Shown here: positions 38,895 to 51,481 of the stretch, one piece after another
Numbering within the stretch: position 1 is the first letter of the stretch
Layout of the letters: each line of letters begins with the position of its first letter
Origin: Balneola sp.
Lineage (GTDB): Bacteria > Bacteroidota > Rhodothermia > Balneolales > Balneolaceae
Length of the DNA stretch: 64,000 bases
Direction: 5' to 3'
Assembly (NCBI GenBank): GCA_028284195.1
Contig: JANQSE010000002.1
Span: 496,001-560,000, forward strand
The notes under the pieces: generated by a model
The model's input: the letters and a program-made list of their open reading frames with translations, nothing else
What the model was told of the DNA's origin: nothing
Database searches by the model: none
Translations under genes and position numbers: made by a program

Positions 38895-39845
38895 TTAAAA
38901 GTGCAAGGTTACAGAAAATGCATCAGCACGGAACATGTTTGCCTGAGCTTGCAATCTGTTGTTGTTCAGCTTCACAGAAAACAGTGCATCAAGTGCCGAT
39001 ACCACATGGTTTATTACCAAAAGATTTAGAATGTTCCCCGCACGGCGATAATTGTCGTTAAACCGAGCTGCCATATCAACACCGGTAAAGAAAAAATCGG
39101 ATGCAAATACTCCGTTGTTATCATACAGATAGTTGTAGTCGGGATTATTGTTGGCAACATTTTGGCTGTAAAAATCTGACCAACCACCCTCGAATTGATA
39201 GTACTTACTTATTAACTCGTAGTATTGTTGAGAACCGTATGCAGGGAGAGTATGAGAAAAATTTCCGGAAGAACAAGAACCGCATACTAAGGCTGTTCTT
39301 TTCTCAATACTCTGTAATAAAGCTAGGTTTACTTTACCCCAATCGTTGGTTGTATTACTAAAATCAGGACTTTTACCAGCTATGTTTGCTTGTAATGTTT
39401 CCCAATTATTATCTAATCCATGTTCGCTGGAATAATTTACCAACCATTCTGCATAGGCTAAAACGCTCCACTCCCGATTGGCATAGGCTTCATAAAGCCG
39501 CTCCTGGTCTTTGGCTGTATTTGTTCGGTTAATGTAGTAAAAGATACTAAAGGCTTCGGTGGCCAGGTAAATTCCTGCACGGGCCCATTTACCATTTGCT
39601 GCCTGATTAGAGCCTGGTATTAATGCCGAAGACAAAAATGCCAGTCCCGGACTGCTTTGTTGGGCATTAATAAAACCATTAGCTGAAAGATCTGGCCGGT
39701 AGGAGAAATCTTCGACTGATAAAGGTTTTTTAGGTGTTTCTTTTTCCAGTTTGGTGATACTTCCCTGAAGATCAGACTTTAGTTGCCCAAAAAGACTTTC
39801 GGGTATAGATAAAATTAAAAGAATGGCTAACATCAGCTTTTTCAT
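38895..39845 (-). CDS. Secreted/outer-membrane hypothetical protein (DUF5683-like)
   Basis: Signal peptide; SSALIPGSNQAANGKWARAGIYLATEAFSIFYY. Confidence 0.55.
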   Translation of the reverse strand: MKKLMLAILLILSIPESLFGQLKSDLQGSITKLEKETPKKPLSVEDFSYRPDLSANGFINAQQSSPGLAFLSSALIPGSNQAANGKWARAGIYLATEAFSIFYYINRTNTAKDQERLYEAYANREWSVLAYAEWLVNYSSEHGLDNNWETLQANIAGKSPDFSNTTNDWGKVNLALLQSIEKRTALVCGSCSSGNFSHTLPAYGSQQYYELISKYYQFEGGWSDFYSQNVANNNPDYNYLYDNNGVFASDFFFTGVDMAARFNDNYRRAGNILNLLVINHVVSALDALFSVKLNNNRLQAQANMFRADAFSVTLHF

Positions 39846-42800
39846 AGAAGCTCAAAATCAAAAGTTAATCCGAAATGGAAAAGCAATTCCCGCCCATAAG
39901 TAACGGTTTTATTGCCCGAACCTGTTACAAACTCTTCCGGTAAAGTAAGCTGAAATTTATTGAAGCCATAGGAGGCACTCACAAATAATTTCAACGGAAA
40001 TAAATAATATCCATTCATTGCCAGCCTTAGTTCTGTTCCAATTCCTGTTTTTAGTTTGTTATCTGTACCAAAAGGGGAGTTCCAGGCATTACCAGCTTCA
40101 AAAAATATACGTGCATACAGCTTGTCTAGTGTGTAAGGCCCAACCTGTTTGGTAATTTTTTTGGCTATGGGAGCGAAGTATGACAGACTTGTGAACACGG
40201 TTTTATCCCCGCCGAGTGCAAAGTAGGGATAGCTTCGCATACCAAGAAACCCTCCAATATAATCGGTATAAAAAGAATCGTTTGGATTGTTGAAGTAAGC
40301 GAAACCCCGTGCCCTGGCCTGAAATGCCTGCCCTGATTTTAATTTGAAGCCATATCGTGCATGGAGCTCTGTAGAATGGTTTCTCGAAGTTTTAAAAATA
40401 GGAACAAGTGCCCCATCTTTGATCTCATACTCTTCGAGTAACTTGCCGGGCTGATATTGATAGCGGACATATCCTTTTAAACCAATAGGTGCAATGTCTG
40501 CATCAGTAGTGAAGTTATAGTAATCGACAGTATAGGCAGCTGATAAGGTGGTTCCTTTAAAATATTCTGAGGAAGATCCACTAATTAAAGTCTGGAGTTC
40601 TGTGGAGAAGAAATTATCTGTTTCAATGCGGTAAGGACTGTAGCCAACGCCGAGTTCAAGCAATGAACGCCTGCTAAGTTTGCTTCTCAAAAACAGGTTT
40701 GCTTCCCAAATCTGGTAAGCGATATCTACATTAGCTGTGTCTTTTTCTACGCACGAAGTACACGGGAATTCTTCGATCTGTAATCCATCTTTAACATTAC
40801 GGCGTAGGTTATACAGTTCGAGGGAAACAGTTGGTGACCAGCTTCTTTTAATAAATGGCAGCCCCCTGTATTCGGCAATTAGAAAGAGGTCTCTATCCAA
40901 TTCCAGTAAACGATCTGGTTTAAAAAATCCTCCGGCATTTTCAGCCGGAAGGGAGGCTATCCCGAACATAGCTCCTCCAAATATATTCAACCTGTCCAGC
41001 ACATCTCTTGAAGCAAAATATACTCCGGGTTTTATATCCCGAAGCAGGTTTTCGCCGAGTTTCCCAAGCTTTCCGTTTTTAAGAAGGGTACCATTATTAC
41101 CATTCAATTTAGAATAATTATCGAAACGGAGAACCGGGAAAAAGGAAAACTTAGTGAATGTATCATCATACTCTTTATACGAGTACTCTTTGGTTGCATG
41201 TACGGTTTGCATCGAAAAATTGAAACTTCCGGTATCAGCAATGGCATACTCGGAGGAAGTAAATGCCGATAACTCTCTGTCATCGAAATTGTTGAGCCGG
41301 GAAAAATCAGCGGAAGCATCAGTAGTTTTATTTTCAGCCTCCTTGTATTCGGGTGCATAGCTTCCTGATTTTGATACAGGCTGAATGGAGGGCACCTTCT
41401 TTATTTTATAACCGTCTGCTTCGTACTCTGAATAGTACAAAGTTCCATTTGAAGTTACGAAAGGCATAAATGCGCCGCCAAGCACATTAGTGATTTTGTT
41501 AGAGGATCCTTGTTTTAAATGGTAACGGTAAATATTAAAAATCCCATCTTTATCGCTTGAGTAGTAAATATGTTTTCCATTGGCTGAGATTACAGGATCA
41601 CGCATGTCGATAAATGTATCAGAAAGCACATTGCTAATTTTTTTGGTTTGTATATCAATCTTCTTAATGCTGCGGTTCCCCAGGTCAGCGTAGGAAAAGT
41701 AAACGGTTTTGCCATCCGGCGACCATGACGGTGTATAGATAGTTTCTCCGGCACGATAATTTGTAATAGGGTTGATTTTTTTGGTTTCGGGATTCAGTAG
41801 CACCAGGTTTTGAGTTCCTTTTGAGTATTGGATAGCTGCAATGACTGCACCATCGGGGCTCCATATTGGAGATTCTATCCGTTTACTATTAGTTAACCGC
41901 TCATGCTTTTCGGATTCGATGTCATACACAAAAATATCACGATAAGACTCTCCATACTTCGTGCTTTTGTTAACCGAGTAGGCAATCTGTTTACCATCAG
42001 GAGAAAAAGAGAAAGTAGTTGATATGAAAGCAATAGCTGGTGCTTCTGTTGCTAAAGCATGTTGTTGGCTTTGATCGAATAAGTGATTAGAAACCATCGC
42101 AATTTCTTTCTCGCCGATAACACTTTTGATGTACAATGAAACCTGGCTGTGATCCCGTGCTTTGTTAGAAAGATATGCTACAGATTTGCTATTTGGCGAA
42201 ATTTTGGGATAGAAATTGAAGAACCCATTTTGTTCAATATATTCGCTTTTGGTTTGGTGGATATCTGCAGTGGCATTTGTATAGAATTTTTTTCGCTCAT
42301 TAATCCAGTTTTTGAAAACTTCATCTCCGGGAATGCCGGTTGCGATTTCTATAGCTTTTGCCACATTATATGTTCCTTTCGTTGCAAGTGCAGAAGTAAT
42401 TTCGCGAAGAATATCTTCTCCAAATTCATTTACTAGGTAAATAACAAAAGCAAAACCCTGGTTGTACACAGTTTCTCTTTCAATGCTTGTTTTAGAGGAA
42501 AAAGTTCCCATCTCCTCAAGCGTAAAGTATGTGTCTGAAAGTATGCGGGTTCTTAGGATCATATCCCGGTGAGTGTCCCAGGAATCGTACAATAAACCCT
42601 GCCGCTGGTATTGAGCAGTTCCTTCAGCCAGCCAGGCAGGAACATTTATTGATGCAAAGGGCAGTGTGGCAATTCCATTTGGGAATCCATAAAGTACATC
42701 GGGCCGGCGTACGTTTTCGTAAGTAAGCCATTGAATGTACGAAACAGGGAATTTCCGCTTGCGCTTCATCGCCTTTTGGATTTGAACAATATGTGTGAAT

Positions 42801-43189
42801 TCGTGGGTGATTACGTTTCGAAGCCAATTATGAGTTCCGCGCAATGGTGTATCTAAAGCTGGCAGCCAGATATCAATTTTGTTATCAAAAAAATAAGCGG
42901 CTCCATTTGAATAATCATCCCGGTCTTTAAGAACAATGCTTACCTTTTGATCGGGTTCGTGTTGGTATAATTTAGTGATGGGTGCATAGATCTCCTCAGC
43001 TACGCGTGACGTTACCTTTGCCGAACGGCTGTTACCTTCTTGAAAATGAACAAGGAAGTGATCACTTTCTATAGTAAACCATTTCAGATGATTGTGAGGA
43101 TGATCGTAAAAAAGCGGGCTGGTTTGTGCAAATATACCAGTGGTTATTAAGTAAAAGAAAGCAGTTACAAAAAACAGGGCTCTTTTCAT
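39842..43189 (-). CDS. Gluzincin-like peptidase domain + TolB/WD40-like propeller + C-terminal beta-barrel
   Basis: HEFTHIVQIQ with downstream AEGTAQY; SPDGKQIAYS / SPDGKTVYFS repeats; C-terminal barrel-like strands ending FHFGLTFDFELL. Confidence 0.8.
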   Translation of the reverse strand: MKRALFFVTAFFYLITTGIFAQTSPLFYDHPHNHLKWFTIESDHFLVHFQEGNSRSAKVTSRVAEEIYAPITKLYQHEPDQKVSIVLKDRDDYSNGAAYFFDNKIDIWLPALDTPLRGTHNWLRNVITHEFTHIVQIQKAMKRKRKFPVSYIQWLTYENVRRPDVLYGFPNGIATLPFASINVPAWLAEGTAQYQRQGLLYDSWDTHRDMILRTRILSDTYFTLEEMGTFSSKTSIERETVYNQGFAFVIYLVNEFGEDILREITSALATKGTYNVAKAIEIATGIPGDEVFKNWINERKKFYTNATADIHQTKSEYIEQNGFFNFYPKISPNSKSVAYLSNKARDHSQVSLYIKSVIGEKEIAMVSNHLFDQSQQHALATEAPAIAFISTTFSFSPDGKQIAYSVNKSTKYGESYRDIFVYDIESEKHERLTNSKRIESPIWSPDGAVIAAIQYSKGTQNLVLLNPETKKINPITNYRAGETIYTPSWSPDGKTVYFSYADLGNRSIKKIDIQTKKISNVLSDTFIDMRDPVISANGKHIYYSSDKDGIFNIYRYHLKQGSSNKITNVLGGAFMPFVTSNGTLYYSEYEADGYKIKKVPSIQPVSKSGSYAPEYKEAENKTTDASADFSRLNNFDDRELSAFTSSEYAIADTGSFNFSMQTVHATKEYSYKEYDDTFTKFSFFPVLRFDNYSKLNGNNGTLLKNGKLGKLGENLLRDIKPGVYFASRDVLDRLNIFGGAMFGIASLPAENAGGFFKPDRLLELDRDLFLIAEYRGLPFIKRSWSPTVSLELYNLRRNVKDGLQIEEFPCTSCVEKDTANVDIAYQIWEANLFLRSKLSRRSLLELGVGYSPYRIETDNFFSTELQTLISGSSSEYFKGTTLSAAYTVDYYNFTTDADIAPIGLKGYVRYQYQPGKLLEEYEIKDGALVPIFKTSRNHSTELHARYGFKLKSGQAFQARARGFAYFNNPNDSFYTDYIGGFLGMRSYPYFALGGDKTVFTSLSYFAPIAKKITKQVGPYTLDKLYARIFFEAGNAWNSPFGTDNKLKTGIGTELRLAMNGYYLFPLKLFVSASYGFNKFQLTLPEEFVTGSGNKTVTYGRELLFHFGLTFDFELL

Positions 43190-46100
43190 TAATGTACCAC
43201 CGCTATTTTAATCAATTTGGAATCCGAACGGTCATTAACGGTAGCTTTTACCATTGCAAAATAAGCACCACTTCCCCAACGGGAGGTGTTTAAAAGAATT
43301 TCTTCCGGCGTTCCGCCATTTGCACGAATTGAGTTTTTATACACCAGGTTTCCACTTAGGTCAATAATGTTAATTTCTACTTGCCCCTGATCTTTTAATT
43401 GAAACCGAATGTATGTTTCTTCATCTGCCGGATTTGGCCAGTTGTATGTTTCTCTTTTATTGAGAACAGAAAATGAGTTGGTCTTATCATCAATAACAGC
43501 GTTTATATGGGCAGAAACTTTGTTGTAAGAATTTGCTCCGTACCTTGAAGGCCAGTCTGCAGAAGTAAAGTCAATGAACCTCCAGGCTTTAACATCTCCT
43601 GCATGGCTTGCAGCATATAACGTATTATCCAAGAAAAAAGGGTGAATTGGCTGGATGTTTTTACCGGTAACTTCCCCAACATAAAGAGGGAATCCTTCTA
43701 AGGGTTTTCCATCCTTACTATAGCCAAAGATATTGATAGAAAAATTGTCCTGACCTACCACCAGGATTTCCTGAATATTATCTCCCGTTATATCAGCCAG
43801 TAAGGGAGTTCCGATAAAGTTTACGTTTTCAGGAGCAAGAACAGGCATATTAGCTAATAGTGCTCCATTCCGGTTATAGCCTGTTAACTCATTGTTGATT
43901 TTATCAATCCGGAACATCTCAAGCTCTTTGCTGAAAGCAACCCATTCAGCAGCATGCTCATTAAAAAGTACAGTAAATGGATCTGTTTTTTGGGGGTCTG
44001 CAAGAATAAAGGCATTATCTTCAAAAATGTAGTACAGGTTTTCAGCCTCGCCTTTTATAACCCCTGCATAAATTCGGTTACTGGATGCTGAAAGGAAGTC
44101 TAAAATCGAGCTACCTGAAAATGAAATGTTCTGTCCATTTACAAAAGCAGCAGAGTTATTAACGATCTCTGTTCTGAAATCAGATGAGTTCTGCTTTGTT
44201 GAAATGGCACCGGTAGCAGGGTTAATAGCGAGAGTAGTAAAATCCAGAAATAGACTGTCTCCGTTTTGTGAACTCAGAAACGCATTGTTAGCTGTAGTAT
44301 CAACCTGCCATATTTGATCGAAGGATTCTGTACCGGAGTTCCAATCGTAGGCGGTAACCAGAAAGTTGCCCGAAGATACTGGGTTTGTACCGGTAATCAA
44401 TCTTCCATCCAGGTATGGTTGTTGATTGCTCGAATTTTGAATTTCAAATAACTGCGGAAGGTTATCATTTAGGCGGATCACAGAAACATTGGTATTGCCG
44501 GGAACTACTACAAATGTATCGCTGGCTGATGTGAAACTCCCGATAGAAAGGGGATAGAAAGAATGATAATTATTGGTTGCAGTAAAAAATTGAGCGGAAT
44601 CAACTTGTATATTTAATGTTTGCTCATACCCAAGATCAAGCTCCTCAAAAGCTTCGATTTTAAAAGAAGCGGTTGGTTGGTTATCAGAAAAATCATAGAA
44701 CCGTACTAATGACCTTGCTCCGGAGTTGCTGTTGGTATTCGGAAAAGTTTCAGGGGTAAACTGGTTTTGGTACAGTTGGATGGTATTTCCCTGAGTAATT
44801 ACACGAAAGTTATTTCTACTCCACCAAAAGTCGAAAGGGGAACCAAAAGCAGCGCTGTTATCCAGCGCACCTTCAATGGGTTTGCCAATATCTTGTGAAC
44901 CATCTGCTTCTTCCAGATCAATGCCCCGGCGTAAATCATCACTGTTAACGCCTTTTCCAAAGCTCATTTTTTGATTTATCACAGCTTCATCTATATGCCA
45001 GATCAAGACTCCTCCATTTAGAAGTCTGTCATCATCGGTTCCTTTAGTATTATCTTCACCGATATCTAACCCGCCGGGAAGGCTCCAATCAAACTCACTT
45101 ACGTTTATCAATACTCCTTTTTCAAAGAGATTATCAAAACCGGTTTCCTGAAAAACAAAGGTGTCATTGTCGTTAGTAAATGTTTGCTGAACTTCGCTGC
45201 CATCGTTTTTACGGATGGTAAGAGTTACTCCATCGTTGCCGATATTCCGGTGCCGGTTTTCGATCAAAAAGTATTCGGAAGAGGAAAGATTGAATTGCGC
45301 AATGTTATTTTGATCGGCTATGCCGGATGCGGCTAGGTTTATATCGCCAGTGGTTTCGGTTGTTATTTGAAATGGAGTTACCCAGTTAAGAAATATTTTT
45401 TCCCATGCAGAGGGCTCGGGAGGGAATAATCCATTGTAAGCAAAAATGCTGGCTCCATCCATCAACCCAAAACGTCCAATTCCCGATTCGCCGGTTTCAG
45501 TATTAAAAAGATCGGGCAAACCCAGGTAACTGCCAATAGAAGCACATAACAACCCATTTATTGAAAGCGGCAGCACAAATTCATTTTCCTGGACGTCCAG
45601 CCCCCGGCGCGATTCTGTTCTGGGAATAATTAAAGAATTGGTAATTCTGAAGGTGCCGTTGTTTACCGAAATTCCATCAAATCCCGGGTCATCTAAAAGT
45701 TCAGCGAGATTATTTTTCCTTAGTGTGATTGAAGGAATATCCTGCGGAGTGATGTCAAGATTTGTTCCAATTAGCTCAATATCGCGGCCTACTCCGGCAT
45801 GGAAAATAATAAAAGCAGTAGAATCAGGGTCTAGCCCTGTTGCGTCAAAACCGCCGTTTTCTTCCACCTTATTCCACGAATCAACAATAAAATTTGCAAG
45901 CTTTTCATTGGTAAAGGTTTTGCCGGTAGGGGAATACTCTTCCATTTTTTTATTGAGGCGATAAACTTGTGGGAGCACGCGATAGTTTATAGTGAATTGG
46001 TTGTCAGAAGATTGTTCAAAATAGTTTTTGGCAAACTCCAGATGTGCTTCGAAATAAGATTGGTTATGGGGTATAGGGTCAATATTGGTAGGATTGTTTT

Positions 46101-46356
46101 CGAGATAGGGTAATCCGCCTTCAAATACTCCTGTACCTGAAGTCAATTCATTTGAATCAGGTTGAAACTCCACCATAATGGCAAGCACTTGCAAAGTACC
46201 AATGGCTGGTACTGCAGAGCTCTGTAATGAGTTTTTAGCAATGGCGTGTGTTCTTTTAAGCTCTACTTTGGGCTGACCCGAAAGCGACAACTGAAAAAAA
46301 AAGAGCATGCCAAATATTAACATGCTCTCGCTAAAAAATGAGTGTTTAACCCGCAT
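43189..46356 (-). CDS. M6-like (immune inhibitor A-like) secreted protein with T9SS type-A sorting domain; zinc motif apparently lost
   Basis: YLGLPDLFNTETGESGIGRFGLMDGASIFAYNG...PSAWEKIFLNW and GGVLIWHIDEAVIN are M6-like; ends with WPNPADEETYIRFQL...GNLVYK...GAYFAMVKATVNDRSDSKLIKIAVVH. Confidence 0.85.
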   Translation of the reverse strand: MRVKHSFFSESMLIFGMLFFFQLSLSGQPKVELKRTHAIAKNSLQSSAVPAIGTLQVLAIMVEFQPDSNELTSGTGVFEGGLPYLENNPTNIDPIPHNQSYFEAHLEFAKNYFEQSSDNQFTINYRVLPQVYRLNKKMEEYSPTGKTFTNEKLANFIVDSWNKVEENGGFDATGLDPDSTAFIIFHAGVGRDIELIGTNLDITPQDIPSITLRKNNLAELLDDPGFDGISVNNGTFRITNSLIIPRTESRRGLDVQENEFVLPLSINGLLCASIGSYLGLPDLFNTETGESGIGRFGLMDGASIFAYNGLFPPEPSAWEKIFLNWVTPFQITTETTGDINLAASGIADQNNIAQFNLSSSEYFLIENRHRNIGNDGVTLTIRKNDGSEVQQTFTNDNDTFVFQETGFDNLFEKGVLINVSEFDWSLPGGLDIGEDNTKGTDDDRLLNGGVLIWHIDEAVINQKMSFGKGVNSDDLRRGIDLEEADGSQDIGKPIEGALDNSAAFGSPFDFWWSRNNFRVITQGNTIQLYQNQFTPETFPNTNSNSGARSLVRFYDFSDNQPTASFKIEAFEELDLGYEQTLNIQVDSAQFFTATNNYHSFYPLSIGSFTSASDTFVVVPGNTNVSVIRLNDNLPQLFEIQNSSNQQPYLDGRLITGTNPVSSGNFLVTAYDWNSGTESFDQIWQVDTTANNAFLSSQNGDSLFLDFTTLAINPATGAISTKQNSSDFRTEIVNNSAAFVNGQNISFSGSSILDFLSASSNRIYAGVIKGEAENLYYIFEDNAFILADPQKTDPFTVLFNEHAAEWVAFSKELEMFRIDKINNELTGYNRNGALLANMPVLAPENVNFIGTPLLADITGDNIQEILVVGQDNFSINIFGYSKDGKPLEGFPLYVGEVTGKNIQPIHPFFLDNTLYAASHAGDVKAWRFIDFTSADWPSRYGANSYNKVSAHINAVIDDKTNSFSVLNKRETYNWPNPADEETYIRFQLKDQGQVEINIIDLSGNLVYKNSIRANGGTPEEILLNTSRWGSGAYFAMVKATVNDRSDSKLIKIAVVH
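46294..46328 (-). terminator. Terminator-like hairpin + T9 tract inside the M6-like CDS
   Basis: Minus strand AGAGCATG-TTAATATTTGG-CATGCTCT followed by T tract (A9 on + strand at 46294-46302). Confidence 0.5.
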
Positions 46357-46361
46357 AAAGT

Positions 46362-47501
46362 TTAATAGTTCAGCAGAATACTAAATCTCAATGTGTTTGC
46401 GAGCGGGTGGTCAGATTCCAGGGTTTTTATGTAACTGAAATCGACTCCAAATTGATTTAATCTGATTCCGGCTCCAAAGGTAATGTATTCTCTGTCACCA
46501 TTTTTAGGGTCTTCATAATAGTATCCACCGCGTATGGCAAATTGTTTTCTGTACCAGTATTCCATACCTGCACCAATCATAAATTGCTGGAGTAAACTTA
46601 CATTGGTTCGCTGCCCGGTATTTGGATCGAGGGGCCTGTACGTATCCCAGGATTTTATAAGTGCTCTTAATGGATTTACTGCTTTAAATTCAAAAGTAGT
46701 GTCACTAGTAGCGGTTACTTCCTGTCGTGCCATCACTTTCGAAATATCTACAGCAAGTGTTAACTCGTTAGTTCTTTCTTCATCCAACCCAATATTTATG
46801 GCAGGCCCAAATCGTAGAACTGTAGGAATAGGGTCTTTCTGAGCGTTGTCAGAATATTGAATTCCAGGCCCAAGGTTAGAAAGGTTGATCCCAAAACTTG
46901 CCACTGCATCAGAGGGGCCAAAATCAAATGGGTTTGATTTGTAAAGCATAGCTAGGTCAACCCCAACGCTGGAACCGGGGTTTACTTTTTGGCCTGATAT
47001 ACTTGTGCCGTTTGCAAGGCTTGAGTAAATCAAACGAAGACCCCCGCCTACCGCAAGGTTTGCATTTACTTCGGTGCCATAAGAAAATCCCAGTGATAAT
47101 TCGTAACTGTTAAACCTAGAAATAACATCTGGGGTTTCTCCTGTTTCTGCCTGCTCTCCTAAGTTAAGGTAAGTAATATGGCCGCCAACCGTACCGATGC
47201 CTTCTATATACTGTTTAACTACCACATAATCGTAGAAGAGATCGCTAACCCCAAAGTTAGCCAGCCAGTTTGAGTGTGTGATACTTGCTTGATTGTCGCG
47301 CTGGAATGCAAGCCCGGCCGGATTCCAAAACAAAGCAGCAGCATTATCTGCTATAGCTACTCCGGTATTTCCCATGCCGGCTCCTCGGGAATCAGGTTCT
47401 ATTTGCAAAAATGGAACTCCAGTAATACCAACCTGGGCGTTTATGGTTAAAGGCAAGAGCAAAATTAAATTTGCCAGAATTAAAATGTATGTCTTTTTCA
47501 T
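46362..47501 (-). CDS. porV: Type IX secretion outer-membrane protein PorV
   Basis: PFLQIEPDSRGAGMGNTGVAIADNAAALFWNPAGLAF; adjacent to PorU. Confidence 0.9.
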   Translation of the reverse strand: MKKTYILILANLILLLPLTINAQVGITGVPFLQIEPDSRGAGMGNTGVAIADNAAALFWNPAGLAFQRDNQASITHSNWLANFGVSDLFYDYVVVKQYIEGIGTVGGHITYLNLGEQAETGETPDVISRFNSYELSLGFSYGTEVNANLAVGGGLRLIYSSLANGTSISGQKVNPGSSVGVDLAMLYKSNPFDFGPSDAVASFGINLSNLGPGIQYSDNAQKDPIPTVLRFGPAINIGLDEERTNELTLAVDISKVMARQEVTATSDTTFEFKAVNPLRALIKSWDTYRPLDPNTGQRTNVSLLQQFMIGAGMEYWYRKQFAIRGGYYYEDPKNGDREYITFGAGIRLNQFGVDFSYIKTLESDHPLANTLRFSILLNY

Positions 47502-47557: not shown

Positions 47558-50500
47558 CTATCTAATGATTACGAGCTTTTCGATTTTTTCGATTGATTGT
47601 CTTCCTTCTGGGGTATCTGTTGCAACCCGAAGCACATAAATATAAGTACCGTTACCCAGGCGATCATTATCCCTGTCACGGCCATTCCATGGAATATTGG
47701 CATAAGAACTAGATGTAATAAGTGATTCTTGCTTGATGTGTTGTACAGGTTTTCCGCTTAGCGTGTAAATTTTGATTGATACATCTAATGGATTACCCGG
47801 CTGATTATGTTCGAATGAGAATTGAGTTTTATTGTTCATTGGATTAGGATAATTATATACACTCCTAATCAGCAGCTCATTCTGGGGTGCTACCTCGAAA
47901 AAGATTTCTTCTTCATTAGGATTGTTATGCACATCCCAGGCCCGAACTTTCAGCGTGTAACTTCCCTCCGGAAGCTGATCCAGAGGAAACTCGATACGCC
48001 CTCCAGTAAAATCATTTAAGTTGCCCTCATAAAATTCATTGAGGATAAATGTTTGTTGTGGTTTTGTATCGATTGTAGCAATTATTTCATGTCCTACTCC
48101 TGTTCCTGTAGTGTTTATTCCTGAATTATCTTGTAGTTCAACGATCAAAGTTGGTGAGTCGCTAACCAAATTTCCGTTTACAAACTTTTCGTCGTTTAAG
48201 AAAACATTTAGTGAAGGCCCTGAGCCATCATTAACAGCCGATGGGTTTACTCCGTTAAAAGTAATACCGGTGAAAGTGCCTCCGGCATATTCATTATCTC
48301 CGTTGGTGTATAAAACTATCCTTCCATTTTCATCAGAGTTTCCAATATCTTTTGGAACAACGAAAATCTGGTTAAATGCACCATTTTGTACAGATGCTTT
48401 TCCTTTAAAGAGCAGATCGGATTCAACGGTATATGTGCAGTTGCCATTTAGTACGCATGTCCAATCTCTTTCCGGCAGGCTTACTGAACGTTTGGCATCA
48501 AAAACAGAAATTGTGGTTTCTCCGGAGAAAGCATTATCAATATTACCTGCCGCATTCTCTATTCGCCCCGTAATTGTTATTTGATCTAATGCCCGAATAG
48601 TTAATGTAGTATCTTTATTGAGTACTTCTACACCGTTAATTGATGAGATAACGGCCTTTCTTGACGGAAGTTTAAAAATTGTAGCAGGATCACCTAGTAA
48701 AACAAATTTTTTGTTATTGGTAGATGAACCTATAGGTGAACTGCTACTTCCCACCAATGAGTTTTTTGTTTCTCTCATGATGTCGCCTAATCGCTTAGGT
48801 GAACCATCAGCATTTCTTTCTGCCATTCGCTGAGACAGGGCTATGTTCAGTCCAAAATTGTTATTGGCACTAATGTTGGAACTGGTATAAACAACTCTTG
48901 TTGTAGTAAATGCAGCAATGGCTCCGCCGTTTGAGGCGGTTACAAATCGCTCCGCTCCTGATTGGTCACTGGTATCATCGTAGCGTCCAAACTGGCAGGT
49001 AGCAGTAACCAATACACAAAGCCTACTTTTATTGGTGAAGTTAGTGATATACTGCGATAGAAAGAGCTCCTCATCGGAAAGAGTTTGCTCGTTACCATGT
49101 CCAGAGTAATTTAGAACAAGGGTTCCGTTATTTACTGAACTAATAAAATCGTTTGTAGCTTCTGGGATTTGTCGCCCGGCTCCGGTAATTTCTTCCGGAT
49201 AAGAGAATGCATAGATTTTTTTAATTCGGATTCCTGGTTCATTTACGTTCATCATCTCTGCTGATACATCTGCGTTTATAGTATGCAGATCCCGGTTTCG
49301 CAAAGGCTCAGGAAAATCGTCATCTGCTGCAAAGGTGAACAAGTTCTGCCAATCTCCCGCATTGGCGTCATTTTCATAGCGTTTTATTTTTTCTACAAAA
49401 TTAAAGCCTTCGGTGCGGGTTTGGGCAATAATTCTTCCAACTCCAATATCAATAAGGAAAGAAGCGGATGTATTACCGCCTCCAAAGTCTCCCTCAGATT
49501 CGTCCATATATCCGAAGTAATCATCTGTTCCAAACGACCCCCCCCCCCCGCCTGTAGCTCTTACAGTTGATTGCGTACTTTGATAAGTAAGTACATGATT
49601 GATTAAAGCATTTGGTACAATATTTTTTGTGTCGTAAGAAGTATCTCCAAAAAGTAGCAGGTAAGATGGAGGGTTTTCACCATCGGCAATAGCTCTGTCA
49701 TAAAGAAATTTCAGGTAATCGCGAATCGCTGTTGGATCTTTAACACCACCTGAAAACTCATTAAGAATTTGATCTTGGGTAACCAATACCGAAGAAAGTC
49801 CCTGTGATTCTCTGTAATTAACCAACTCTCTGGCAGGATCCAATAACGCTTCAGAGGCAACGACTACATACTCAGGATATTCGTTAATTCCCCTTAGATT
49901 TTGATTGGGGATTTGAGTTCCGGCATTGGGAGCTACGAGGTTAGTTTGGGCAATAATTTGTCTGCCATCATTTTGGAAATAGTCGAGGTTAAAATCAGAA
50001 CTGTTGGATGAGACCTGGAGCCTGATTGGAGAAACAGGGTTGGTTACATCTAACACATAGGGAGCTGAAGAAAAGTTTTGAAGACGGAAAGTAACTTCAG
50101 TAACTGGGTCGTTGTCGTTTTCTGTGTAGAAAAACAATCGCTCATTTTCTGCTGAGAGGGAACGGTTAAATGTAAGCCTTAACCAATCGACAAAAGCAAC
50201 ACTGTTTTGTTGGCGATGGGTTACTCTGGCAGTTAAATCAAAAGTATTGTTATCAGGACTTACTGTTACTGTGTTTGTGAAATTATAGGCAACAGCTGCA
50301 GGCCCTTCGTTTCCGTTATATCCTCTTGAGCTACTAGTTGAAGAAAGGCTGCCCATTGTTTGATTGGCTACATCTGTACCGTTTAAGTTTATATCAAAAG
50401 TAGTGAGTGCTTCTGAACGCGCATACATTCTCCCGGAAACAAAAACTTCTACGTTTGATCCTAAATTTGGCAAAGTATCTTTTAGCACCGATATAATACT

Positions 50501-51481
50501 ATTGCTTTGTGAAGAAGGTATTTGCTGCCCCAGCCAAAAACGCCCCGACTTGAACCTATCTTCTGGTTTAACCAGTTCGTCATCTTTCCATATAAAATCG
50601 GTGAAGGTAGTTACGGTTGCAGTAGGATTTAAGCCCGTATTCGCAGAGGAAAGCCTCATACCATTTTGCGAACCAACAGTCAGAAATATATAATTAAGAT
50701 CAGAATAAGGATGGACGCTATGTTGAAATATTTGCCCATTTCGAAATGTTCTATGTGGACTGTTGCCATAAAAGATTATACGATCTTGTACATCGAAAGA
50801 ACCATCAGATTCTCCTTCTACAATAATTGGTATTTGTGAAAAAGCAGGGCGGGCGGCACTGTTTAATTCCGGAAGTTGATATCCATCGGTTCCCCATAAC
50901 TGAATATTTCTTGGGTCAATCGAAGAGATATTAATTCCTAGACTGGATAAGTACGCGCTATTGAGTTGGTATATTTGATTACCTGAAATTGGGATCTTAT
51001 ACCAGATTCCTGAAGCAAGGGGGGAATCAGTAAATATATTTGTACTTGTTTTTGACTTAATCAGAGCGCTATTTCTTTTGTAAACTCTGAATCGGAGTTT
51101 AGTAGTAACTATGGTTCCTATATCTGAATGCCTTGCTCTGTGTATTAAAACAGGTACGTATTCCTGATTCTTAAAAATACCGGATGGCAATAGCTGAACA
51201 ACACTTACTGAATCAGATGAAATGAGCAAAGCCTTTTGTGTTTCTTCATCTAGCATTCGATAAGAATTACTTGTGTTCTGCTCCAGGATCTTAATAGCAG
51301 GCTGTCCATTTACAACCGGAACCAGCATTTGGTGTGGAGGAAGTACAGCATGATCATCATTTACCAATTCATAATCAGTAAATGATTCTGTTTCTGTTGT
51401 TACTTTTATCTTCTGAGCTGTTGCTTCAGTCAGGAAAAAGAAACCAACCAATCCACAAAAAAGCAGAAGCTTGATCTTCAT
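47558..51481 (-). CDS. porU: Type IX secretion sortase PorU
   Basis: C25-like domain: YLLLFGDTSYD, GTDDYFGYMDE, GVGRI, LVLNYSGHGNEQTLSDEE (His) and VLVTATCQFGRYD (Cys); CTD-like C-terminus. Confidence 0.92.
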   Translation of the reverse strand: MKIKLLLFCGLVGFFFLTEATAQKIKVTTETESFTDYELVNDDHAVLPPHQMLVPVVNGQPAIKILEQNTSNSYRMLDEETQKALLISSDSVSVVQLLPSGIFKNQEYVPVLIHRARHSDIGTIVTTKLRFRVYKRNSALIKSKTSTNIFTDSPLASGIWYKIPISGNQIYQLNSAYLSSLGINISSIDPRNIQLWGTDGYQLPELNSAARPAFSQIPIIVEGESDGSFDVQDRIIFYGNSPHRTFRNGQIFQHSVHPYSDLNYIFLTVGSQNGMRLSSANTGLNPTATVTTFTDFIWKDDELVKPEDRFKSGRFWLGQQIPSSQSNSIISVLKDTLPNLGSNVEVFVSGRMYARSEALTTFDINLNGTDVANQTMGSLSSTSSSRGYNGNEGPAAVAYNFTNTVTVSPDNNTFDLTARVTHRQQNSVAFVDWLRLTFNRSLSAENERLFFYTENDNDPVTEVTFRLQNFSSAPYVLDVTNPVSPIRLQVSSNSSDFNLDYFQNDGRQIIAQTNLVAPNAGTQIPNQNLRGINEYPEYVVVASEALLDPARELVNYRESQGLSSVLVTQDQILNEFSGGVKDPTAIRDYLKFLYDRAIADGENPPSYLLLFGDTSYDTKNIVPNALINHVLTYQSTQSTVRATGGGGGSFGTDDYFGYMDESEGDFGGGNTSASFLIDIGVGRIIAQTRTEGFNFVEKIKRYENDANAGDWQNLFTFAADDDFPEPLRNRDLHTINADVSAEMMNVNEPGIRIKKIYAFSYPEEITGAGRQIPEATNDFISSVNNGTLVLNYSGHGNEQTLSDEELFLSQYITNFTNKSRLCVLVTATCQFGRYDDTSDQSGAERFVTASNGGAIAAFTTTRVVYTSSNISANNNFGLNIALSQRMAERNADGSPKRLGDIMRETKNSLVGSSSSPIGSSTNNKKFVLLGDPATIFKLPSRKAVISSINGVEVLNKDTTLTIRALDQITITGRIENAAGNIDNAFSGETTISVFDAKRSVSLPERDWTCVLNGNCTYTVESDLLFKGKASVQNGAFNQIFVVPKDIGNSDENGRIVLYTNGDNEYAGGTFTGITFNGVNPSAVNDGSGPSLNVFLNDEKFVNGNLVSDSPTLIVELQDNSGINTTGTGVGHEIIATIDTKPQQTFILNEFYEGNLNDFTGGRIEFPLDQLPEGSYTLKVRAWDVHNNPNEEEIFFEVAPQNELLIRSVYNYPNPMNNKTQFSFEHNQPGNPLDVSIKIYTLSGKPVQHIKQESLITSSSYANIPWNGRDRDNDRLGNGTYIYVLRVATDTPEGRQSIEKIEKLVIIR
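49538..49549. repeat. 12-nt C/G homopolymer in the porU coding sequence
   Basis: caaacgaCCCCCCCCCCCCgcctgt; encodes TGGGGGSF on the minus strand. Confidence 0.95.

Follow-up and report, generated by a model that had tools for sequence, protein, structure and literature searches.

The subject of this work is a gene on the minus strand (43189..46356) of a 64,000-nucleotide stretch of Balneola sp. DNA (assembly GCA_028284195.1, contig JANQSE010000002.1, positions 496,001 to 560,000), hereafter the window, which encodes a protein of 1055 residues, M6i, an M6-like, inactivated metalloprotease dependent on the type IX secretion system (T9SS) (NCBIfam family NF052323.1, 1219 bits against a cut-off of 600). 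M6i has lost the zinc-protease motif HExxH, an ancient loss that is fixed among its orthologues; its gene is linked to porV, is independent of the sortase PorU, and occurs or is absent together with the gene of a second protein, PMA, whose own zinc-protease motif is intact. The best reading of these data, to which we would give an even chance, is that M6i is a pseudoprotease that would be delivered by PorV, may reside at the cell surface, and would work as a couple with PMA.

It has to be noted that the NCBIfam entry already names the protein family and its inactivation, and M6i is therefore not new as a family. It is new in its company and not in its name: the couple with PMA, the independence from PorU and the predicted architecture are added by the present analysis. 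No paper on M6i or its gene cluster was found among the papers listed in a literature search that left out most subscription journals and all bioRxiv preprints.

The Pseudo-Active Site and Its Conservation

A passage in PMC12237041 gives the metzincin consensus as HExxHxxG/NxxH/D and describes the role of the Met-turn. The M6 form of this motif, HExxHxxGxxD, reads ASIGSYLGLPD in M6i, with both zinc histidines and the catalytic glutamate lost. When M6i is aligned with eight M6 proteins of related genomes that carry HExxH, the H, E and H of the motif correspond to A272, S273 and S276, respectively, within the pseudo-active site ASIGS (residues 272-276; 45529..45543, on the minus strand like the other features of M6i, porV, porU and PMA given below). 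D282 (45511..45513), at the position of the third metzincin zinc ligand, and M299 (45460..45462), at that of the Met-turn, are kept. The open reading frame from which a lost active site had originally been predicted is present as quoted, with GLLCASIGSYLGLPDLFNTETGESGIGRFGLMDG and the flanking strings PSAWEKIFLNW and LIWHIDEA, and no HExxH occurs anywhere in its 1055 residues.

Conservation was followed in 110 M6i orthologues with their flanking regions, made up of the best 30 of the family search and 80 chosen for diversity. None of them carries HExxH at the site, and the only occurrence elsewhere in this set is an HEMAH string in one locus (L006). Among 80 named loci, which overlap with the 110, the site was readable in 77 (two have no PDLF and one gave a mis-set string, ENYSP), and HEMAH is found away from the site in L134 and L136. 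Taking into account that 0/110 orthologues have the motif in place, ASIGS is not a product of chance, and M6i is an old and fixed pseudoprotease; a recent mutation or a sequencing error is ruled out as its cause by the same count. The survey of orthologues next to porV that was proposed with the original prediction has given a uniform answer: all lack HExxH at the site, and neither another zinc motif at the site nor a recent mutation accounts for it.

No active M6 ancestor was found next to porV in 20 porV loci from lineages without M6i. In an unrooted tree of 21 M6i and eight HExxH-bearing M6 sequences, the active group stands apart with a support of 100, and L109 forms a long branch adjoining it (support 35). 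A single loss of HExxH in the M6i lineage can only be inferred, since the tree is unrooted and this long branch lies beside the active group. A ninth M6 locus, L216, was left out of the tree because the HExxH pattern found nothing there; its M6 domain scores 212 bits, above cut-off, and the locus may represent another M6 that was inactivated separately, or the motif may have been missed through the pattern or the reading frame.

The surroundings of the lost motif are well conserved. N267, G268, P281, D282, L283 and D300 are identical in all 110 orthologues, and M299 is methionine in 106 of them. The mean Jensen-Shannon divergence is 0.67 for residues 262-305, 0.51 for the whole M6-like domain, 0.27 for the propeller and 0.50 for the sorting domain; residues 262-305 being the best-kept stretch, we infer that the cleft has not simply decayed. 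The strong conservation of N267, G268, P281, D282 and D300 could also be read as a sign that M6i has a different catalytic activity, in which D282, N267 and other conserved residues would work with another metal or with none. However, the residues that replace the ligands are small and vary between orthologues (A/S/G, S/N/T/Q and S/N), no alternative HExxH is found at the site, and the HEMAH strings of the three loci named above lie elsewhere, so that such an activity seems improbable.

Predicted Architecture

The AlphaFold2 model of M6i, built from 55 aligned sequences (predicted local distance difference test, pLDDT, 86.2; predicted template modelling score, pTM, 0.85), consists of three parts: an M6-like domain with the metzincin fold (residues 52-572; 44641..46203), a beta-propeller (residues 574-929; 43570..44637) and a T9SS type A C-terminal sorting domain (residues 970-1055; 43192..43449). 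In this predicted model the first part matches the zymogen of InhA2 (4yu5_A) with Z 21.0, a root-mean-square deviation (rmsd) of 3.3, 379 aligned residues and 17% identity, and a second InhA2 structure (4yu6_B) with Z 20.5. The check by hidden Markov models and structure prediction that had been proposed gave a divided result, in which the predicted structure is InhA2-like, the Pfam search of the protein gives no match to PF05547 (the Pfam M6 family), and TIGR03296 reaches 60.8 bits, under its cut-off of 110.8. The assignment of M6i to M6 is therefore made from the InhA2 fold and the NF052323 match, and the proposal of a lost catalysis in a retained fold is upheld by the ASIGS site in the M6 alignment together with this predicted fold. 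A sequence search of solved structures with the M6i alignment gave no match at E<=0.1.

The InhA2 match sets in at chain residue 161, which leaves the N-terminal region of the zymogen without a counterpart in M6i, and a plausible signal peptide is separated from the M6-like domain by only some 25 residues; from these two facts, M6i appears to have no pro-domain. The segments that had been described as FG-GAP-like match no FG-GAP family at E<=0.001, and that description has to be replaced: in the model, the region is an 8-bladed BamB-like propeller (8bvq_B; Z 21.4, rmsd 3.9, 302 aligned residues, 12% identity).

Linkage to porV and Independence from PorU and PorZ

The NF052323.1 family is found above cut-off in 145 of 394 genomes of the phylum, and one named carrier outside Balneolota is a contig of Ignavibacterium sp. 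(L192). A further contig, labelled Chitinophagaceae bacterium T5-Br10_B2g13 (L179), encodes an M6i about 43-44% identical to that of Balneola, which suggests a mislabelled metagenome-assembled genome.

In the window, the gene of the outer-membrane shuttle protein PorV (46362..47501; NF033710.1, 267.4 bits against a cut-off of 250) ends 5 bp upstream of M6i, in agreement with the predicted position directly downstream of porV, and it is preceded in the same cluster by porU (47558..51481; NF033707.1, 1020.7 bits against 420). porV lies immediately upstream of M6i in 109 of the 110 orthologue loci (the exception being L077), among sequences of about 30% identity, and in 74 of the 80 named loci; of the other six, five begin where the contig does, and in L177 a porV fragment is displaced. 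A partnership of M6i with PorV itself would fit this synteny. porU is found upstream in 92/110 loci, and many of its absences correspond to contig ends, short flanks or true losses.

PorU itself is above cut-off in 256 of the 394 genomes. Sixteen Balneolaceae genomes have M6i above cut-off and no PorU above cut-off (G061, G081, G108, G119, G171, G199, G231, G262, G270, G301, G317, G332, G344, G360, G364 and G368); a PorZ match is absent in 15 of them and weak in G270. The order porV-M6i-PMA is kept in all 12 loci fetched from these genomes, and the arrangement without PorU is also represented by named strains (Rhodohalobacter sulfatireducens, L141; Rhodohalobacter halophilus, L184; Fodinibius halophilus, L173). 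PorU and PorV without M6i exist as well, in loci such as L196, L198 and L200 and in genomes such as G003 and G235. The original prediction had seen in M6i a binding or structural partner of PorU and PorV: the linkage to porV stands, and PorU as a partner has been rejected, given the sixteen genomes in which M6i occurs without it.

These data also bear on the proposal that M6i belongs, as a subunit, to the attachment complex of PorU, PorV, PorZ and PorQ, in which it would replace or assist PorZ or PorU. The order porU-porV-M6i, seen here and in the 92 loci mentioned, is in line with it, and the propeller and sorting domain recall PorZ, whose structure 5m11 is the top Foldseek row. However, PorZ is present in the same genome (C6:284-724), for which reason M6i was rejected as a PorZ substitute, and PF21544, the N-terminal propeller of PorZ, has no match in M6i. 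Taken with the PorU-PorV loci that have no M6i, and with the PorU-less genomes, by which it is contradicted unless the role of M6i changed there, this makes membership of the complex very improbable.

The translocon protein SprA was found in 24/24 genomes tested, all sixteen PorU-less genomes included. As a separate observation, many Balneolaceae, including Rhodohalobacter and Fodinibius, have SprA, PorV and sorting-domain cargo (the cargo as seen in six of the PorU-less genomes), no PorU above cut-off and almost no PorZ, and their T9SS is apparently sortase-less. Three genomes of the same class (G305, G147 and G384; loci L194, L195 and L203) encode PorV without an adjacent PorU and have weak PorU-family matches elsewhere (about 1e-50 in G305 and G384, 9e-7 in G147), so that this lineage, too, is apparently without a canonical sortase.

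PMA, the Downstream Protease/Barrel Gene

PMA (39842..43189) combines a peptidase-MA-like domain (PF13485, 5e-8), a TolB-like propeller (PD40, 2.6e-22) and a BamA-like barrel. Its start codon overlaps the stop codon of M6i by one base (taatg) in the window, and the same overlap is found in 47 of 173 M6i-PMA pairs, a count that includes overlapping genomes. The predicted model (pLDDT 78.3, pTM 0.76) is less sure than that of M6i; its propeller matches TolB with Z 25.6 and its barrel matches BamA (8xnb_A; Z 19.5, rmsd 4.5, 328 aligned residues) in a single row among the matches listed. No whole-protein NCBIfam name was found for PMA.

In the zinc motif HEFTH (residues 129-133; 42791..42805), H129, E130 and H133 are invariant in 29 sequences, as is E189. 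HExxH occurs in 172 of 173 PMA matches, a set in which genomes again overlap, the exception being a fragment of 147 residues; in four matches another HExxH comes first and HEFTH follows. Thus, with 0/110 on one side and 172/173 on the other, the protease motif has been lost throughout in M6i and kept throughout in PMA. PMA is also the more conserved of the two, with a mean column identity of 58% (29 sequences) as compared with 41% for M6i (55 sequences).

PMA follows M6i at no more than 1 kb in 94 of the 110 loci, and four more (L088, L096, L100 and L101) have it on the same strand, slightly further away or with overlapping open frames, which brings the count within the locus to 98/110. Ten loci have no PMA in the stretch read, and two (L038 and L069) break off too early for a verdict. 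When the whole genomes of the ten were searched, PMA was recovered elsewhere in 10/10, as one full-length match in seven and as two pieces in one open frame in three (G133, G280 and G005). PMA is therefore present in 108/110 M6i genomes, the remaining two being those whose loci end too soon. In the same kind of search, full-length PMA was found in 0/21 genomes without M6i, where the best matches are partial, about 24-35% identical and with E of 6e-28 or weaker, with the exception of a 48% identical PMA-like piece of 109 residues in G164 (E 4e-28).

Fisher's test of M6i against PMA over 32 genomes gives 8e-9, a value that ignores shared ancestry, and for this reason more weight is given to cases in which the two genes are missing together among related genomes. 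Neither gene is present in four genomes of genus g6 (G151, G223, G246 and G282). Two of the loci concerned (L202 and L205) read thiolase>PorV>g316>PASTA>rpe, where 17 others read thiolase>PorV>M6i>PMA>g316>PASTA>rpe and 27 read thiolase>PorU>PorV>M6i>PMA>g316>PASTA>rpe. Genus g21 varies in the same manner, with both genes in G085 and neither in G235 and G356. On these comparisons of gene content, the couple formed by M6i and PMA is well supported.

The gene g316 in these arrangements encodes 316 residues; in the window it lies directly after PMA (38895-39845), it has no Pfam match at E<=0.001, and it stays next to porV in L202 and L205, where M6i and PMA are absent.

The Sorting Domain and Possible Surface Residence

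The predicted C-terminal sorting domain was found as such: TIGR04183 gives 30.8 bits over residues 973-1050 (34.7 in the genome search; cut-off 23) and PF18962 gives 1.6e-9, both above cut-off. According to passages in PMC11285876 and PMC8545088, PorU and PorZ of Porphyromonas gingivalis keep their sorting domains uncleaved, and these domains are longer than those of processed cargo. The TIGR04183 score, ranked within each genome, was taken as a rough guide to residence. In the Balneola sp. genome, M6i ranks 23rd of 24, with PorU 24th; in G042, M6i comes third from the bottom among 32, after PorZ and PorU; and M6i has the lowest score in 6/6 PorU-less genomes tested (of 5, 6, 7, 11, 8 and 12 domains), which were picked from the sixteen.

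The alternative is that M6i is ordinary T9SS type A cargo: inactive, adhesin-like or able to bind a ligand, and either released or held at the cell surface. Its position beside porV would then reflect an inherited operon only, and its link with PMA would be functional and unrelated to the T9SS. Its sorting domain is a recognisable type A domain, above cut-off; type A domains are, in a passage of PMC12618676, all recognised by PorV; and genomes lose M6i and yet keep the T9SS. Against this, porV adjacency in 109/110 loci is maintained across sequences of about 30% identity, and the score of the sorting domain mostly falls toward the PorU/PorZ end of the range in each genome. We regard ordinary cargo as rather unlikely. 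Residence at the surface is moderately supported, the evidence leaning in this direction without settling it.

Proposed Mechanism

In the account that we prefer, M6i would cross the inner membrane and exit through the T9SS translocon, an export route suggested by its sorting domain and the presence of Sov. PorV would collect it via the type A sorting domain and, like PorU and PorZ and unlike ordinary cargo, M6i would then stay at the surface. Its M6 domain, having the fold and a conserved, remodelled cleft, would most likely bind a protein or peptide without cutting it. PMA, with a BamA-like barrel in the outer membrane, a TolB-like propeller and an intact zinc-protease motif, would be the working partner, to which M6i would bring the ligand or for which it would act as a gate. 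Docking near PorV and action with PMA as a ligand presenter or gate is the best-supported account of the mechanism, and the gating or presenting role toward PMA is itself a somewhat doubtful guess. It is less probable still that Balneolota and related lineages possess an as yet undescribed machine of the outer membrane made up of M6i and PMA, with M6i as its T9SS-delivered outer receptor or cap; if so, binding outside by M6i would control cutting by PMA at the membrane.

Several points weigh against a surface-resident M6i coupled with PMA. The sorting domain is only the 4th lowest of 31 in G005, the 6th of 35 in G087 and the 15th of 45 in G298, and the combined p of 0.003 for a low score over 11 genomes presumes an independence that relatives do not have. 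The tests of co-occurrence with PMA leave out phylogeny, PMA is not adjacent to M6i in ten genomes, and the distance correlations over 66 loci do not single it out (partial r 0.34 for PMA, 0.41 for PorU and -0.02 for PorV). The protease domain of PMA may be periplasmic while M6i would be outside. Furthermore, the T9SS itself can do without M6i and PMA, since PorV, SprA and 5-9 proteins with a sorting domain are retained in genomes that lack the pair.

The co-retention and co-loss of M6i and PMA constitute the first testable lead on the function of M6i: a pseudoprotease that had a name and no explanation now has a definite partner, and the two can be tested as a pair. Natural test cases are available in close relatives that have PorU, that lack it, or that lack M6i and PMA together. 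Most work on the T9SS, including the T9SS papers used here, has taken Porphyromonas and Flavobacterium as models, and M6i and PMA would indicate that other lineages have an additional surface module attached to PorV, which is present even in the absence of the PorU sortase.

Comparison with Known Systems

The closest description is NF052323.1 (T9SSA_dep_M6i) itself, which M6i matches over its full length and which gives the same reading of the protein; the entry names the protein only, and the partner, the independence from PorU and the structure come from the work reported here. M6i shares with InhA and InhA2, of peptidase family M6, the metzincin fold, the Met-turn and the aspartate of the third ligand, and it differs from them in having neither HExxH nor the N-terminal zymogen part, and in the addition of a propeller and a sorting domain. 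With PorZ and PorU it has in common the predicted condition of a T9SS surface protein and a low-scoring type A-like sorting domain, although it matches neither PF21544 nor the PorU family and is co-inherited with neither protein.

Metzincin pseudopeptidases of the ADAM22 type, which a passage in PMC11266112 presents as non-cutting receptors, have likewise lost the motif and kept the Met-turn; being eukaryotic and unrelated to M6i in architecture, they serve as a working analogy only. Finally, type B cargo with its own PorP/SprF shuttle, as outlined in part of PMC12618676, offers another case of a secreted protein co-encoded with an outer-membrane shuttle, whereas the sorting domain of M6i is of type A and the shuttle encoded next to it, PorV, is a general one.

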